64,000 bases of DNA from an uncultured SAR92 cluster bacterium (GTDB taxonomy: Bacteria > Pseudomonadota > Gammaproteobacteria > Pseudomonadales > Porticoccaceae). Position numbers and translations under genes: made by a program. The stretch lies in NCBI GenBank assembly GCA_902596775.1, contig CACJVE010000010.1, forward strand, positions 1 to 64,000, written 5' to 3'. Within the stretch, counting starts at the first letter, position 1. The number at the start of each line of letters is the position of its first letter. The notes beneath the pieces are model-generated. The model did no database searches and was not told the origin of the DNA. It saw only the letters and a program-made list of their open reading frames with translations. This document shows positions 31,494 through 38,712 of this stretch, piece by piece.

Positions 31494-31517
31494 ATCCAAG
31501 ATTAGTTGAAGGGCCGA

Positions 31518-34037
31518 ATGAATATTTCATCTAGAGTTTTAATCAGAGCACTCCGAGCAGGCGAATTAAACACGATATTATGGTCGTTATGTCTATCTGT
31601 AGCGGTGGTAGCGGCGGTTTCAATTTTTGCGGAGAGAATTGAAAGAGCTATCATAAATGAGTCTAAGGATTTATTGGGCAGTGATTATGTTATAAGAAGC
31701 AGTAAAGCTATTCCTCCGCAATGGACCGATGTTGCAAACGAGATGGGATTAGATGCGAGTAGAACTGCATCTTTTGCATCTGTCGTCTTTCGTGAAGAAA
31801 GGATGCACTTGGCGTATATCAAAGCAGTTCAACCTAACTATCCTTTGAGAGGAAATATACTAGTATCTCAAATACCGTTCACGGTTGATTATTCACAAAT
31901 TCAAGAGATAAAGTTTGGCCCAAAAATCGGTGAGGTATGGGTTGATTCAAGGTTATTGACGATCCTCGATGTGAACATTGGCTCTCAGATTGAAATTGGA
32001 GATGCCGAGTTTGAAGTATCGAACATTTTAATCGAAGAACCTGAAGGTTCATCATTTTCTATTTTAGGCTCTAAGATTTTAATGAATTTTTCAGACATAG
32101 ATTCTACCAAAATTGTCCAACCAGGCAGTCGTGTTACTTATAATTTGCTAGTTTCATCAGATAACGAAACTACCGTAAGCAATTATATTAATTGGGTTTC
32201 GAAGGAAATAGGTCCTCATGACCGTTTGATTTCTCCGGAAGAGGCACAAGAAAATGTATCATCAACAATAGAACGGGGAAGAATATTCCTACTTTTGGCA
32301 GGCAGTATTGGCGTTGTCTTGGCTTCTGTGGCACTTGCCTTGGCCAGCTACCTTTTTGCGGAAAAGCAGAAAACTCAAGTTGCACTTTTGAAAACTTGGG
32401 GAATGAATGAAAGTCAAGTCAGAGAACTCTATTTAAATCAAAGCTTTTTGCTTGGATTTATGGGATCAATTCTTGGTATCGGTTTGGGATTTTTATTTCA
32501 TTTAATATTGATTGATATCGCGAGGGAATGGTTGCCTCTGTTTTTACCAGCACCAACTTATAAAAGTTTTCTCATAGCATTAGTAACGGGGTTGACATGT
32601 GTGTTGGGTTTTGTATTACCTGCGCTTTGGCACCTCCCTAAGCAAGCTCCAATTTCAATATTAAAGGGTAACGTTGAAAACTATTCTCTTAACTCCCGAT
32701 TACGAATTTTGGTTGGTCTGTTGGTTATAACTTTTCTACTTACATTTTATAGTGAAAATATAAGCATAACGATAGCTATGATTATAGGAATATCTTTGAT
32801 TTCTCTTTTATCAGCCTTAACTGGTGGTTTGCTTTTCAAGGGTGCTTCATTATTAGGATCATTATTTGGTGGAATCTGGCGAATAGGATTAAGCAATTTG
32901 TGGCGTCGACGAAGACAAAACTTGATCCAACTTATTGGTTTCTCTACTGCGATTTTTTTATTTTTAGTTTTAGCAATAACGAGGAATTCACTTCTAGACG
33001 AGTGGAAACTGCAAATTGATGATGAATTACCTAATCATTTTCTGATAAATGTATCAAAAGACCAGGTTAAAGGGATTGAAAATCTTATTAAGGATGAAAA
33101 TATCATAAGTGCTGGATGGTATTCGATGACTAGAGGAAGAATTATAGAGATTAATAGGAAAATAATTACAAATGATCAGAAAGAAAGTCATGAATCATTC
33201 AATAGAGAATTAAATCTAAGTTGGAGTGCGGCAATACCCGAAGGTAATAAAATATCCAAAGGGCTTTGGTGGGAATCAGATTGGCAAAGTGGTGATTTTC
33301 AACAAAAAGATGGTGAAGAGGTAATCTCACCTGTGTCTGTTGAGCATGATCTTGCAAAAGAGCTTGGTCTAAAGCTTGGCGATACGATCACCTTTAGTAT
33401 TGGGGGATTAGTTTTTTATTCGGAAGTGGTTAACACTAGAATATTAGATTGGAACAAAATGACTCCAAATTTTTATTTCTTGTTCCCGGAGGGAACTTTG
33501 CAGGATTATCCAAAAACATCCATGACGAGTATGTTCATCCCCACAGACGAGAAGGTATTGATAAGTGAGATTCTTCAAGCATATCCTACCATTCAGATTA
33601 TAGAGCTAGATAAAATATTTGATCGCGTTAAAAAAACAATTAGTCAAATTACAAAGGCGTTAGAGGCGATGACTATTCTCATCCTATTTTGTGGGATTCT
33701 AGTACTCATCGCCTCGGTGCATTTATCTGTAAATGATAGGAAGCGCGAGGCTGCAGTTTTGAGAACTTTTGGCTGTAATCGAAATAAAATTATTTTAGTA
33801 CAGCTAATAGAGTTTGTAATTTTAGGACTCGTGTCTGGATTTCTTGGTGCTTTTGGAGCTGAGGCTGTAATTACATTACTATCACTAACAGTTTTTGAGT
33901 TTTCGCTAACATTGCATCCCTGGATTTGGTTTTTTGGACCATTGGCAGGCATGTCAGTCATTTCTATTTTTGGGATTTATGCATGCAGAGATGCCTTGTC
34001 AAGCCCTCCGCTGACGATACTGAGATCATATCAGTAA
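31518..34037 (+). CDS. ybbP: ABC transporter permease YbbP (FtsX/MacB-type)
   Basis: A large permease with two FtsX-like cassettes. There is an N-terminal helix (residues about 21-40), a periplasmic domain, three helices (about 260-380), and a further group at about 395-500. A second periplasmic domain (about 500-710) and three C-terminal helices (about 720-830) follow. The FtsX motifs are visible as LLKTWGMNESQVRELYL and VLRTFGCNRNKIILVQLIEF, the coupling-helix segments after each first helix. ATG 31518 is chosen over TTG 31506; GAAGG lies just upstream. The product has 839 residues, normal for YbbP. It converges with the histidine kinase gene, leaving 3 bp. Confidence 0.92.
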   Translation: MNISSRVLIRALRAGELNTILWSLCLSVAVVAAVSIFAERIERAIINESKDLLGSDYVIRSSKAIPPQWTDVANEMGLDASRTASFASVVFREERMHLAYIKAVQPNYPLRGNILVSQIPFTVDYSQIQEIKFGPKIGEVWVDSRLLTILDVNIGSQIEIGDAEFEVSNILIEEPEGSSFSILGSKILMNFSDIDSTKIVQPGSRVTYNLLVSSDNETTVSNYINWVSKEIGPHDRLISPEEAQENVSSTIERGRIFLLLAGSIGVVLASVALALASYLFAEKQKTQVALLKTWGMNESQVRELYLNQSFLLGFMGSILGIGLGFLFHLILIDIAREWLPLFLPAPTYKSFLIALVTGLTCVLGFVLPALWHLPKQAPISILKGNVENYSLNSRLRILVGLLVITFLLTFYSENISITIAMIIGISLISLLSALTGGLLFKGASLLGSLFGGIWRIGLSNLWRRRRQNLIQLIGFSTAIFLFLVLAITRNSLLDEWKLQIDDELPNHFLINVSKDQVKGIENLIKDENIISAGWYSMTRGRIIEINRKIITNDQKESHESFNRELNLSWSAAIPEGNKISKGLWWESDWQSGDFQQKDGEEVISPVSVEHDLAKELGLKLGDTITFSIGGLVFYSEVVNTRILDWNKMTPNFYFLFPEGTLQDYPKTSMTSMFIPTDEKVLISEILQAYPTIQIIELDKIFDRVKKTISQITKALEAMTILILFCGILVLIASVHLSVNDRKREAAVLRTFGCNRNKIILVQLIEFVILGLVSGFLGAFGAEAVITLLSLTVFEFSLTLHPWIWFFGPLAGMSVISIFGIYACRDALSSPPLTILRSYQ

Positions 34038-34040
34038 TTG

Positions 34041-35489
34041 CTAAACCTTAGGCAACCTCAGGCTGAATGTTGTGTTAACTTTGTTGTCAGAGAGAACAGC
34101 TAATTGACCTTGATGCTGCTCAGTTATAATGAAATATGAGAAGGATAGCCTTTGGGCTCCCTCCATTTGCTTGGAAGGAGTATTTTTAGCTGATTGATTG
34201 ATTGGATCAAATGAATCAAACAAGTATCGTTGTTCGTGATCAGTCATAAGTGATCCATTGTGTTCAATTTTTATCCAAATATCGTCGTAAAATGTTGACA
34301 CTGAGATTCGTAACTCAGGCAAGTAATCCGGAGAATCGATTTGTCCCATAAAAAAGCAAGCATTTCTTAATAGACTTAGAAATACTTGTTTTAACTCAGT
34401 GGCATAGCATGGAATTTCGGGTAGTTCTTTTTTATACTTTTTTGTTATTTTGATATCGTGGAAATTTACACCTGAACTCAAAGCAAGAACATCTGACGCA
34501 AGCTCAATACTTTGATCAATTATTGCTGTAACGTTTTCATGAGCCTTAGGCTGAGTGCCGCCGGTTGAAAAATGTATTAGATTTTCGACAACCGATCGTG
34601 CTTGCTGTGCTCCAATAAGCGAATTTTCCAACTCTTCCATTACTTCTGATTTTTCAAAAGTCTCTTTAGCAAGTTGAGATCGAGCTGTTTTCACGGAAAC
34701 CGACATCTTTTTAATTGGAAGGTTGACATCATGAGCCATAGTAGATGCTAATTCCCCTATTAAAGCCATCTTGTCTTTATGTATTAATTGAGTTTCAGAG
34801 TTTACGCGTTGTGTTATGTCATCCAGGAGTAAGACAACTCCTGTGGCGGAATTTTCTCGTAATGGATAGATCAAGATATCAAAATGATATTGCCCTTTTT
34901 GACTATATTTAATAGACACCGTTGCTTTTTTGCTTCGGGCTTCAGCGATTTTCTCAGGGCTAACGGTAATATCAGGATAGGCGTCCCACAAGAACCGCCC
35001 AAGGACATCACCGCTTGAAAGACCCGATATTTCCTCAGCTTTTGGATTCCATTGGGTTATATAATTATCCTTATCTAGCCCAATAAGCATTAATGGCATA
35101 GATTTTAAAACCTCAATTATGTATGCCTCAGAATTTTTCAGTTGTGTTGTGGTGGTTAAATGCTTTTTTATTTCGGTTTCAAGCGCCAGGTTGCTTTGGG
35201 ATAGTCTTTCATTTGCATCTTGGAGAGTCGCAGTCCTCTCGGACACACGTAATTCCAAATTCTTTTTAATTTCGATTAATTTTTGATTGAAAGATGTTAT
35301 TTTTCGCTGACCAAGAACTACTTTAATTAGAGCAAAAGATAGAGCAATAATGAGAAGGCTGCTTGATGTGTTTGCAACATACTGCCAATTTGTAGACCCA
35401 TCTGATTCCCGAAAAATAAAAAAAATGTCATTTGCTGCAATCGAGGATGCTGAGTACATCACTATTATTAATGTCGCTAGATATTTCAT
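34041..35489 (-). CDS. PAS-domain sensor histidine kinase-like protein with degenerate ATP lid
   Basis: 482 residues. Two hydrophobic segments (about 2-18 and 42-58) flank a short periplasmic loop. A coiled coil (about 62-118), a PAS domain (about 120-228, MPLMLIGLDKDNYITQWN) and a DHp helix with H-box GELASTMAHDVNLPI (His253) follow. The HATPase region has an N-box (LLRNACFF, Asn376), but the G1 box reads IEHNGSLM, with His410 where the adenine-binding Asp normally sits. The G2 box reads EGAQRLSFS (443-451), with every lid glycine replaced. It may therefore bind ATP poorly and act as a pseudokinase. No response regulator lies nearby. It is 27 bp downstream of the DUF411 gene, probably in one transcript. 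The signal sensed is unknown. Confidence 0.82.
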   Translation of the reverse strand: MKYLATLIIVMYSASSIAANDIFFIFRESDGSTNWQYVANTSSSLLIIALSFALIKVVLGQRKITSFNQKLIEIKKNLELRVSERTATLQDANERLSQSNLALETEIKKHLTTTTQLKNSEAYIIEVLKSMPLMLIGLDKDNYITQWNPKAEEISGLSSGDVLGRFLWDAYPDITVSPEKIAEARSKKATVSIKYSQKGQYHFDILIYPLRENSATGVVLLLDDITQRVNSETQLIHKDKMALIGELASTMAHDVNLPIKKMSVSVKTARSQLAKETFEKSEVMEELENSLIGAQQARSVVENLIHFSTGGTQPKAHENVTAIIDQSIELASDVLALSSGVNFHDIKITKKYKKELPEIPCYATELKQVFLSLLRNACFFMGQIDSPDYLPELRISVSTFYDDIWIKIEHNGSLMTDHEQRYLFDSFDPINQSAKNTPSKQMEGAQRLSFSYFIITEQHQGQLAVLSDNKVNTTFSLRLPKV

Positions 35490-35516: not shown

Positions 35517-36026
35517 CTAATCAAGTTCCGTTGAGTGCATATAAACTTCTTCTTTTCCATTTTCAAACATGACAAGTATTTCGTAATCGTCATTTCTGTT
35601 ATCAAACTCCATACCGGGTGATCCAACAGGCATACCTGGAACTGTTAGGCCCATAGAGTTGGGAATGGGGTCTGCAAGGAATTTCTTGATCGCCGCCGCA
35701 TGCACATGTCCCTCGAAGACAAAACCATCTTTTGAAACGCTCGTATGACAAGATTTATGTTTTGAGCTAATATCAAATTTATCTTTGATAACATCAAGAT
35801 TCTCATGATTGGTCTCGATGACATTTATGTTAGCCTCTTGCGCATGGCTTATCCATTTTTTACAGCATCCGCAATAGGCAGTTTTATGCACCTCGAGCGA
35901 TATTTCCGGCTCTCCGTCAGCTGAAAGTGAATTATTGAAAGTAAAAGCCAGTAAAAATATTAAGATTAGTTTAAAGTTTGTGCCAGACCTAAATATAAAA
36001 TGGCCTAGGAAATTAAATTCTTTCAT
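35517..36026 (-). CDS. DUF411 family periplasmic metal-binding protein
   Basis: A 169-residue exported protein. After an N-terminal signal or anchor helix (about residues 18-36) come the DUF411 hallmarks in order: AYCGCCKKW (Cys-X-Cys-Cys), a CHT motif (KSCHTSV), GHVHAAAIKKFL and MGLTVPGMPVGSPGME. The conserved Cys, His and Met residues suggest copper binding, and DUF411 genes are commonly found near copper resistance genes. That is family-level context rather than evidence from this locus, where no copper ATPase or CopA-like gene is seen. The start at 36026 leaves a rather long N-terminal region before the hydrophobic core. It lies between selO and the sensor-kinase gene on the minus strand. 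Confidence 0.87.
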   Translation of the reverse strand: MKEFNFLGHFIFRSGTNFKLILIFLLAFTFNNSLSADGEPEISLEVHKTAYCGCCKKWISHAQEANINVIETNHENLDVIKDKFDISSKHKSCHTSVSKDGFVFEGHVHAAAIKKFLADPIPNSMGLTVPGMPVGSPGMEFDNRNDDYEILVMFENGKEEVYMHSTELD

Positions 36027-36116: not shown

Positions 36117-37607
36117 TTACGATGAGCAGCTCAATCGCTCTGAATGCAGTTCATCTGGTAAAGGTAAAGAATAGTTATAATAATTTTGGTGTTCATCAAA
36201 TGGTGACTGAATTAGAGTTTCTATCGTTTTTAATTCACTAAAATCACCGCGTTCTGCATTGGTAATTGCCCTTTGTGCTATATGGTTCCTGAGAGTGAAC
36301 TTCGGATTAACTTTTAACATAGATATGTTTGGAACTCTCGAGCTTTTTTCTTGATTCAATAGTGATTGATAATTTTTAAACCAAATTTTGATAGTTTCCT
36401 TTTCATTAAAAAGCTTGAGTAATTCATCGCTAAGCGATTGTGTATAGCTAAGCTGTCTAAAAAAGAATGTGTAGTCCACCTGGTTCTTTTGCAAAATTTT
36501 AAGTAAATCATCAACTAATTTATGATTTGATTTCTTATATCTGATGCCTAATTTATTGCTCATTATTTTTTGATACTTGGTAATCAGGGTTGGCTCATAT
36601 AATTTTAGTATCGAGATTATTTTTTCTCGAGAGAGGAGACTTGAAAAACATATAGCAAGTGCATTGAGGTTCCACAGACCGATTGAGGGCTGATTATAAA
36701 AGGAGTACCTGCCATTATAGTCTGACGTATTACAAATCCACTGGGGATCATATCTGTCAAGAAACCCGAAAGGTCCATAGTCAAGAGTCTGACCTAGAAT
36801 GCACATATTATCGGTATTTAGTACGCCATGACAGAAACCAACTGACTGCCATTGTGCTATCAAATACGCTGTGCTGATTACAATACTTTTGAAAAGTTTT
36901 TCATATCTGTCCTCTTGAGAATCCCAATCAGGGAAGTGGCGATTAATGATGTAATCGAGTAACTGCCGCACCGAATCGAAGTCATTTAAATAATGAAAGT
37001 GTTCTAATGAGCCAAATCGAATATGATTTGGTGCAACTCTGCATAGTATTGCTGCAGCTTCAGATTTTTCTCTTTGAACTTGTGTATTACTGGACACGAG
37101 GCAAAGCGCTCTTGTCGTCGGTATTCTCAGTCCATGCATAGCCTCAGAGCAAAGATATTCTCGAATAGTCGACCGAAGCACAGCTCTTCCATCAGCAAAT
37201 CTGGAGTAGGGAGTAAGTCCTGCGCCCTTTAGCTGAATATCCCACAGGACCTCTCGGTTTGCACTATGGTTTTTGACAGGAATCTCTCCAAGAGTGACTG
37301 CTCTTCCATCACCGAGTTGACCAGCCCAGGTCCCAAATTGATGTCCTGAATAAACGACTGAAGTTGGTTTCAGGTTTGTATTTGAAGTATCTGCTGACAT
37401 TAATTTCAGGGCTCCTTCGCAGTTAAAAATATCAGGATTTAAATTAAGATCCTCGCAGAGTGATTGATTGATATGAACAAGGTTGGGCTCCTCGAGTGGA
37501 GTCGGCTGGCAGTAATTGAAGATATCGATATTCTTAGCATAAAAATGGTCCGAGAAATGATTACATATTGCTGTAACAAATGAGCTAAATGTATGGCTTT
37601 TAGTCAT
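36117..37607 (-). CDS. selO: Protein adenylyltransferase SelO (YdiU)
   Basis: SelO is a pseudokinase-fold enzyme that transfers AMP to protein hydroxyl groups and has been linked to redox homeostasis. Landmarks are GHQFGTWAGQLGDGRAVTLG, LKGAGLTPYSRFADGRAVLR, the CSEAMHGLRIPTTRAL segment and GVLNTDNMCILG with LDYGPFGFLDRYDP, the metal-binding and catalytic region. The C-terminus is SCSS, so the residue that is selenocysteine in eukaryotic SelO is a cysteine here. ATG 37607 is preferred over TTG 37619 because GAGGG lies 5 bases upstream; it gives 496 residues (E. coli 478). It overlaps the upstream SMP-30-like gene by 8 bp, implying coupling. Confidence 0.94.
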   Translation of the reverse strand: MTKSHTFSSFVTAICNHFSDHFYAKNIDIFNYCQPTPLEEPNLVHINQSLCEDLNLNPDIFNCEGALKLMSADTSNTNLKPTSVVYSGHQFGTWAGQLGDGRAVTLGEIPVKNHSANREVLWDIQLKGAGLTPYSRFADGRAVLRSTIREYLCSEAMHGLRIPTTRALCLVSSNTQVQREKSEAAAILCRVAPNHIRFGSLEHFHYLNDFDSVRQLLDYIINRHFPDWDSQEDRYEKLFKSIVISTAYLIAQWQSVGFCHGVLNTDNMCILGQTLDYGPFGFLDRYDPQWICNTSDYNGRYSFYNQPSIGLWNLNALAICFSSLLSREKIISILKLYEPTLITKYQKIMSNKLGIRYKKSNHKLVDDLLKILQKNQVDYTFFFRQLSYTQSLSDELLKLFNEKETIKIWFKNYQSLLNQEKSSRVPNISMLKVNPKFTLRNHIAQRAITNAERGDFSELKTIETLIQSPFDEHQNYYNYSLPLPDELHSERLSCSS

Positions 37608-38712
37608 CTTTACCCTCAAAGTTAAGATATTTCTTACTTAGTCGCGCAAGATTTTTTGATTGTAAGGAGCTTATATAGAGCCATTGATCTGTCTCTAATG
37701 CACCAGTATTTGTATGATATTTGCCAATTGGATCTTGGAGCGTGATTAAAACATTGCCATCTTCATCTAAAGCAAAAACATGACTGTAATATGTCGCACT
37801 TGGGCGCAGAAATTCAGGTAATCTCTGCACTACTTTTCGCAGTTTTGGAAAATTCGAAAGAGCATCAATGATTTTACTTCTGGGTGACACCAAGCCTACC
37901 CAGAATCGACCATTTTGACCTCTTACAATATTATCAGGGAAGCCTGGCAGGTTATTAATTATTATCTCGGAGGAACCAGCCTTATCTCCTTTTAACCAAT
38001 ATTTGTGTATTTGATAAGAGCCAGTTTCTGTTGTCAGAAAGAAGTTGCTTTCTTTATCCAGGGCAACACCATTTGCAAAATTTAAGTTATCCATTAAAAC
38101 TTTTGTCGTATTATCAGAAGGATCATAAACCAAAATCCTTCCATGACCGCCGTGCTCTGCGATGTCCAACAAACTTGCATTGTATGTACCACCAAATTTA
38201 GCGCTGAATTTAGTTGAAGCATCGCTAAAAATAATCTTCCCACTTTTAGTTACATCCACGTCATCGGCATATCGAATTTCATCACCATTCACCATCTTAG
38301 TCAGGACAGAAATTTGCCCATTTGGAGAAATTTTAAGGAGTCCAAGGTAGGCATCCGCTACGATAAGATTATTTTTTTTGTCAAAAGTTATTCCTAGTGG
38401 ACTACCCTGAGTATTAACCCATTTAGTTACAGCGCCAGTTTGTTGATTATATTTAATTATCCACCCCTCTCTTGTTGAGGCAAAAATTTCATTGTTAGAA
38501 AGTGCTAAGTCTTCTGGCCCAGTGAGATCCGGAACCATTATGATTTCAAGATTACTTAATGAATCGTTAGCTTTAAATTTTCCTGTAAGACCCTTGTCAT
38601 ATGGCGCTTGCCATGGCACTGGATCGATCGGAACTGGCCAAAAAAGCATATATAAACTTAAGAGAAGCAAAAAAAAGATACCTGTTTTTTTTATTGAGTT
38701 TTTCAGATTCAT
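37600..38712 (-). CDS. Membrane-anchored SMP-30/strictosidine synthase-like beta-propeller protein
   Basis: A hydrophobic N-terminal anchor (KKTGIFFLLLLSLYMLFWP) precedes a six-bladed beta-propeller region of the SMP-30/gluconolactonase/strictosidine-synthase type. Blade-like repeats include GPEDLALSNNEIFASTREGWI, SPLGITFDKKNNLIVADAY, YADDVDVTKSGKIIFSDAS and ANGVALDKESNFFLTTETG. The Asp/Asn-rich loops match the metal-site pattern of the fold. The substrate is unknown; relatives include lactonases and arylesterases such as APMAP. ATG 38712 gives 370 residues; an in-frame TTG at 38751 would add 13, and neither has a clear ribosome-binding site. It is the first gene of the leftward run with selO. 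Confidence 0.83.
   Translation of the reverse strand: MNLKNSIKKTGIFFLLLLSLYMLFWPVPIDPVPWQAPYDKGLTGKFKANDSLSNLEIIMVPDLTGPEDLALSNNEIFASTREGWIIKYNQQTGAVTKWVNTQGSPLGITFDKKNNLIVADAYLGLLKISPNGQISVLTKMVNGDEIRYADDVDVTKSGKIIFSDASTKFSAKFGGTYNASLLDIAEHGGHGRILVYDPSDNTTKVLMDNLNFANGVALDKESNFFLTTETGSYQIHKYWLKGDKAGSSEIIINNLPGFPDNIVRGQNGRFWVGLVSPRSKIIDALSNFPKLRKVVQRLPEFLRPSATYYSHVFALDEDGNVLITLQDPIGKYHTNTGALETDQWLYISSLQSKNLARLSKKYLNFEGKDD

Follow-up and report, generated by a model that had tools for sequence, protein, structure and literature searches.

The locus and the predicted protein

The stretch of DNA analysed here (the window; 64,000 nucleotides) comes from a member of the family Porticoccaceae/SAR92 and carries, at 34041-35489 on the reverse strand, an open reading frame of 482 aa with an ATG start, the product of which resembles a sensor histidine kinase (PAS, DHp, and CA parts). 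The features of the locus, including those within the product, are as follows:

31506..34037 (+), YbbP-like FtsX permease, the convergent neighbour, a synteny marker of SAR92 relatives
34041..35489 (-), pseudo-histidine kinase ORF, 482 aa (Pfam, AlphaFold2 model, orthologues)
35433..35489 (-), residues 1-19, N-terminal hydrophobic segment, possibly a Sec signal peptide (AxA-like pattern)
35361..35432 (-), residues 20-43, short predicted periplasmic tail (conserved T33, W35, Q36, N40)
35298..35360 (-), residues 44-64, predicted transmembrane helix (hydropathy; model helix 35-130)
34785..35135 (-), residues 119-235, PAS domain (PAS_9, 33.1 bits, and other PAS models in Pfam)
34560..34814 (-), residues 226-310, DHp helical hairpin (AlphaFold2 helices 226-274 and 280-310)
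34731..34733 (-), His253, the phospho-acceptor position (replaced in 42/120 members)
34044..34553 (-), residues 313-482, CA (HATPase_c) fold (Pfam, model, structural neighbours)
34362..34376 (-), residues 372-376, N-box remnant SLLRN (alignment)
34248..34262 (-), residues 410-414, G1 box HNGSL, with His for the adenine-binding Asp (alignment)
34209..34220 (-), residues 424-427, F-box FDSF, in most relatives FEPF/FEPY (alignment)
34140..34163 (-), residues 443-450, G2/ATP lid EGAQRLSF replacing GTGLGLSV (alignment)
35517..36026 (-), DUF411 protein, directly upstream across a 27 nt gap, perhaps in one operon (Pfam)

Pfam finds an HATPase_c domain in the product (35.6 bits, E 1.4e-8, cut-off 26.4) and, at E 0.01, no HisKA, receiver, or Hpt domain; the protein ends with the CA domain. 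The closest family model is AtoS (NF008468), matched at 102 bits, below its cut-off of 646. Hydropathy in 19-residue averages reaches up to 1.95, from residue 43, and the loose AxA-like pattern behind the putative signal peptide (a permissive pattern, applied without a control) fits 114 of 122 members of the family (group B, below).

We modelled the protein with AlphaFold2, using a model based on a 117-sequence family alignment (mean pLDDT 89.7, pTM 0.66; pLDDT 40.9 from the single sequence). It runs from an N-terminal helix through a short segment, a long helix, PAS, and the DHp hairpin to the CA domain; its weakest block, residues 431-440 (mean pLDDT 61), adjoins the lid. The long helix is predicted from hydropathy to cross the membrane and to continue as a coiled coil. 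Neighbours found by Foldseek and VIA-align include the sensor kinases ThkA, ZraS, HK853, and DivL, and also pyruvate dehydrogenase kinases; DivL (4q20; Z 17.8, 4.0 A over 201 residues) appears there in a list made up mostly of active kinases. The best PDB profile match is ThkA (E 1.2e-50), and RetS is a weak one (E 1.6e-6). The confident PAS-DHp-CA model therefore argues for a histidine kinase-like protein and against a chance match, and an earlier, sequence-only reading of the locus was right that fold, PAS domain, and frame are intact.

ATP-site and phospho-acceptor residues across the family

The G1 region of the window protein reads IEHNGSLM, with His410 at the position of the adenine-binding Asp, and the G2 region reads EGAQRLSFS, with E, A, and R at the lid-glycine positions 443, 445, and 447 and thus RLSF where a canonical GLGLS lid is expected; the F-box is altered too (FDSF), and the DHp histidine, His253, is present. 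All of what the sequence-only reading had listed here (His253, both altered boxes, and the replacement of the three lid glycines) is confirmed by the sequence, but its statement that the N-box Asn is retained applies only to the second Asn (N376), since the first is Ser372, and N376 itself was probably re-acquired (see below).

Relatives of the gene are common in the family: 83 of 112 Porticoccaceae genomes match at E 1e-70 or better, a few of them partially, and no inner stops were seen among the orthologues listed from these genomes. The best 80 of 227 named relatives, from a search that also used the WQ motif of the N-terminal tail, include Porticoccus, SAR92 (with HTCC2207), Marinobacterium, Nitrincola, Teredinibacter, Dasania, and HTCC2148, as well as MAGs named Hahella and Kangiellaceae. 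Among 369 genomes sampled from the class, six (the window's own included) have the degenerate type at 1e-129 or better; the five new ones belong to other orders by kinship assignment, and 5/5 have His at G1 and the RLSF lid. There were also nine weaker matches in the class (E 8.8e-50 to 2.1e-58), and the six of them that were aligned (L305-L310) keep Asp at G1 and a GTGLGLS lid.

We sorted the sequences by the WQ motif of the N-terminal tail into group B (123 sequences) and group A (20 rows, after removal of two N-terminally short fragments, L158, of the intact type, and L195). Group A consists of canonical kinases with other N-termini. Their H, N, G1, and G2 boxes are intact: every one of the 20 rows has Glu at H+1, Asn at both H+3 and H+4, an Asp at G1, and glycines at 443/445/447. 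Two group B sequences from MAGs, L156 and L157 (38% identity to the window protein), keep HDIN, NLFRNA, DNGVG, and GTGLGLS, as read on the same genes under the labels L060 and L067. Without these two and the chimeric-looking L131, group B comprises 120 degenerate members, to which the following counts refer. The tail residues T33, W35, Q36, and N40 are present in 120/120, the invariance of W35/Q36 being partly by construction, because the degenerate group was sorted by the WQ motif; among the rows sorted out (canonical kinases and the two N-terminally short fragments) there is no full-length degenerate sequence without WQ.

Position 410 is His in 118 members and Phe in 2, and position 447 (the third lid Gly) is Arg in 112, His in 7, and Pro in 1. 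At position 376 there is His in 91, Tyr in 16, Asn in 6, Ser in 4, and Cys in 3, so the second N-box Asn is lost in 114/120, with the window among the six that have Asn; the adenine-binding Asp, the Mg-binding Asn, and the third lid Gly are jointly lost in 114/120. Leu448 and His459 are each found in 120/120. All three lid glycines are absent in 59/120, but the middle lid position is still Gly in 54, which counts against the explanation preferred below, as does the fact that the degenerate family retains its F-box and HNG and, following the lid, the LS. Two sequences outside the count of 120 have His at G1 with lid Gly present: L195, which is N-terminally short and of the degenerate type, with Gly at 447; and L131, with Gly at 443, 445, and 447 and a C-terminus that looks chimeric. 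Adding both, the third lid Gly is absent in 120/122. After its F-box, L131 (G172:C13) reads like a different HATPase, either an assembly chimera or a recombination. By sequence, the canonical ATP and Mg contacts are gone, and the residues suggest that activity is lost with them, although some weak or atypical binding of nucleotide may persist.

The phospho-acceptor position is more variable: position 253 is His in 78 members (including the window, which also counts against the preferred explanation), Gln in 18, Asn in 9, Tyr in 7, Ser in 4, Arg in 3, and Phe in 1. The phospho-His is thus dispensable in part of the family, while the adjacent Asp254 and Pro258 are invariant (120/120); in a survey of HisKA domains, it was missing in 0.9% (722 of 76,471; PMC12632262, in excerpt).

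For the tree, 145 deduplicated sequences were reduced to 118 at 90% identity, the trait columns were removed, and group A served as outgroup. Group B forms one clade (SH-aLRT 100), in which L156 and L157 are sister to the degenerate clade (SH-aLRT 100, stem 0.86); a 125-row tree with 100 degenerate rows has the same topology for the groups and the intact sister. The minimum number of changes on the tree is 1 for G1 (Asp or not), 2-3 for the third lid Gly, 5 for the N-box Asn, and 14-15 for the phospho-His. With one change at G1 vs. 14-15 at the His, the G1 site was lost once and early, on one deep branch, and the His later and many times. Since Asn at 376 is found in only 6/120 and the site shows five binary changes on the tree, N376 of the window looks re-acquired rather than kept. 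The sequence-only reading had proposed an alignment with homologues, with intact sisters as a sign of recent loss: the G1 and G2 changes turn out to be common to the orthologous family, and the intact L156/L157 are sister to it, so the loss is not recent.

Omega was computed with our own Nei-Gojobori script for 23 pairs of close relatives that have no member in common. It ranges over 0.028-0.218 across the whole gene (median 0.060) and 0.016-0.29 in the CA domain alone (same 23 pairs; median 0.064), so by this measure the gene is under purifying selection in 23/23. The highest whole-gene value, 0.218, belongs to the window's own pair, in which synonymous changes are few and the partner sequence contains unresolved bases. 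Because the orthologous family shares the loss, G1 changed on a single deep branch, and dN/dS is low, this is, judged from its sequences, a selected pseudo-histidine kinase family that is old and widely kept. That agrees with the earlier suggestion of a selected pseudokinase rather than simple decay, the same replacements being found across families and orders.

Neighbouring genes and candidate partners

The DUF411 gene, whose linkage had been pointed out in the sequence-only reading, does adjoin the pseudokinase gene in the window, but the linkage is not a family trait: among the 105 loci of relatives that are at least 4 kb long (some with only about 1.5 kb of flank), a DUF411 neighbour is found in 8, in each case on the pseudokinase strand and no more than 150 nt away, and by reading of the tree all 8 are in or very near one SAR92 subclade. 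The ybbP-like gene lies within 3 kb in 35 of the 105 loci, always on the opposite strand. Which genes flank it depends on the clade: ybbA/ybbP-tesA in SAR92, galE or genes for ribosomal proteins in Porticoccus, and different ones in other clades. By eye, among the loci listed, no conserved neighbour cluster beyond the gene itself spans the 71 loci compared. A conserved neighbour as partner was rejected, because the neighbours differ by clade.

Two genes upstream of the pseudokinase, at 36117-37619 (-), is a gene for a SelO-type protein adenylyltransferase (455.9 bits); its linkage to the pseudokinase gene recurs in SAR92 relatives and is probably a matter of synteny only. SelO is a pseudokinase-fold enzyme. 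In addition, a permease-like membrane protein with a Cys-rich N-terminus is encoded upstream of the pseudokinase in 8 SAR92 loci (for example, L170, L173, L182, L183, L056, and L065), on the opposite strand in at least 6 of the 8. With DUF411 there are thus two metal-like neighbours, in different subclades.

The statement that no response regulator is encoded nearby holds for the window and beyond it. The 7 REC matches in the window's own genome are on C21, C25, and C33; the window's contig (C10) has none. A home-made profile of 4 REC domains, run on the 90 degenerate loci that span at least 6 kb, found no receiver gene closer than 3.7 kb (76/90 reach 3.7 kb on both sides); 8 of the 90 contain a receiver ORF somewhere, the nearest not under 3.7 kb, and 0/2 intact group B loci have one. 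In contrast, a receiver gene lies at most 1.4 kb away in 5 of the 14 group A loci. By the absence of a linked receiver gene in these loci, the pseudokinase gene is an orphan.

By reading, the window's own genome (78% complete) encodes four other sensor kinases (PhoR, NtrB, an AlgZ-like kinase, and a hybrid), none of them on the window's contig. The AlgZ-like and hybrid kinases were searched for as partners among 110 Porticoccaceae genomes; neither tracks the family across genera, and this search yielded no partner. The AlgZ-like kinase occurs in g12, a genus that lacks the pseudokinase, and in the pseudokinase genera g4 and g8 the genomes listed show weak matches at best; the hybrid kinase is found in only 12/110 genomes, partial matches included. 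The AlgZ-like match in G046 (genus g10; C41:45416-46528) has 7 in-frame stops, an apparent decay, and the pseudokinase frame of that genome is open.

Only one genome of the 110, G094 (L012; SAR92, 1.3 Mb, 80% complete), has 0 REC matches; it carries the pseudokinase, with no other sensor kinase by frame length. This case was set aside, because glnA, the neighbour of ntrBC in the window's genome, likewise gave no match there at 1e-40; the locus is therefore more likely absent from the assembly than lost.

Possible modes of action

We consider it probable, with room for doubt, that the protein is a conserved pseudo-histidine kinase without canonical Mg-ATP binding that serves as a docking partner in trans without phosphate chemistry; it would probably signal by binding another protein, not by passing phosphate. 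On our analysis the best reading would be an ATP-free allosteric sensor like DivL or RetS. The short periplasmic tail and one membrane helix would lead through a coiled coil into PAS, the DHp dimer, and the CA domain; on sensing a signal, the PAS domain or the conserved tail in the periplasm may shift the DHp/CA module to another conformation, and the module would then dock a partner in trans. This partner could be a second histidine kinase, giving a heterodimer of the RetS kind, or else a receiver or some other regulator, as for DivL. No autophosphorylation, phosphotransfer, or phosphatase chemistry would be involved, and the partner is probably encoded elsewhere.

Known systems resemble this in part. 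DivL of Caulobacter is also a PAS-DHp-CA pseudokinase and, without kinase or phosphatase activity, works by binding a receiver (PMC4211667, in excerpt), but it has Tyr for His and keeps its N, G1, F, and G2 boxes (same source), whereas in the window's family loss began with the ATP-site boxes and reached the His later, and not uniformly; DivL is alphaproteobacterial, and this family was found in Gammaproteobacteria. The RetS-GacS network of Pseudomonas is similar in that a kinase-like protein controls another kinase; RetS, however, is described as a hybrid kinase, and no receiver domain was found in the window protein. A ChrS variant of Corynebacterium glutamicum has a dead CA domain and still promotes signalling through the paralogous kinase HrrS (PMC9491836, in excerpt), but it is a laboratory-evolved frameshift and not a natural conserved family. 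RcsD differs in that phosphate passes through its Hpt domain, and no such domain was found here. NtrB-like kinases of the AtoS/ZraS type and group A are homologous over PAS-DHp-CA; group A, unlike the window's family, keeps the H, N, G1, and G2 boxes.

Of the three roles suggested in the sequence-only reading, partner of another kinase fits best, while phosphatase and phosphotransfer scaffold are disfavoured because the phospho-His and the H+4 Thr/Asn both vary. The phosphatase motif after the His is E/DxxT/N, with H+4 as its phosphatase position. An ATP-independent phosphatase, in which DHp would dephosphorylate a receiver through the acidic H+1 residue and its neighbours, would be consistent with Asp254 (H+1) in 120/120 and Asn at H+3 in 99/120, and the His is reported not to be essential for HisKA phosphatase activity (PMC12632262, in excerpt). 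We think it unlikely, however: Thr/Asn at H+4 (257) is found in 22/120 vs. Asn in 20/20 canonical relatives, the window itself reads DVNL after His253, with Leu at H+4 and hence without the motif, and no linked receiver gene was found.

It is likewise doubtful that the old ATP pocket has turned into a site for a metal or some other ligand, to which H410, H376, and C378 might bind. His410 and His376 are frequent, as counted above, and Cys378 is found in 85/120, and the gene follows a DUF411 gene in one subclade; but only half of the members (60/120) have all three residues, the window (N376) is not one of them, and the other 97 loci, some of which are short, yielded no DUF411. Unlikely too, though it can be put forward, is a broader proposal: that these are marine gammaproteobacterial receptors without phosphate chemistry, with the pocket rebuilt (His410, Arg447, often His376/Cys378) for a ligand or metal, DHp as a docking switch, and possibly targets outside two-component systems.

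Quite improbable, in our estimate, is a kinase that has diverged but is still active, with an unusual mode of binding for ATP or a different nucleotide in which His410 and Arg447 make contacts instead. The retained CA fold, F-box, and HNG, the conservation of the replacements themselves, and the confident fold model would fit it; the joint loss of the adenine Asp, Mg Asn, and third lid Gly in nearly all members argues against it, and so does the repeated loss of the phospho-His, a residue that no autokinase could do without. That the gene is simply decaying towards loss is hardly credible: the window's genus sits on a long stem (0.79) and its closest pair has the highest omega of the 23, on few synonymous changes, but the listed orthologues are free of inner stops, the same substitutions span families and orders, and omega is low.

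A literature search by title and the start of abstracts returned no paper on the window's pseudokinase family, and few natural pseudo-histidine kinases (DivL, RcsD) turned up in the literature so searched. In the window's family the order of events can be read (ATP site first, His later), an intact sister group is there for comparison, and the natural variants allow tests of how a kinase turns into a sensor without catalysis. Streamlined ocean bacteria keep the family although they have few regulators; in G005 (1.3 Mb), for example, frame length and adjacent receiver genes point to three other likely sensor kinases.
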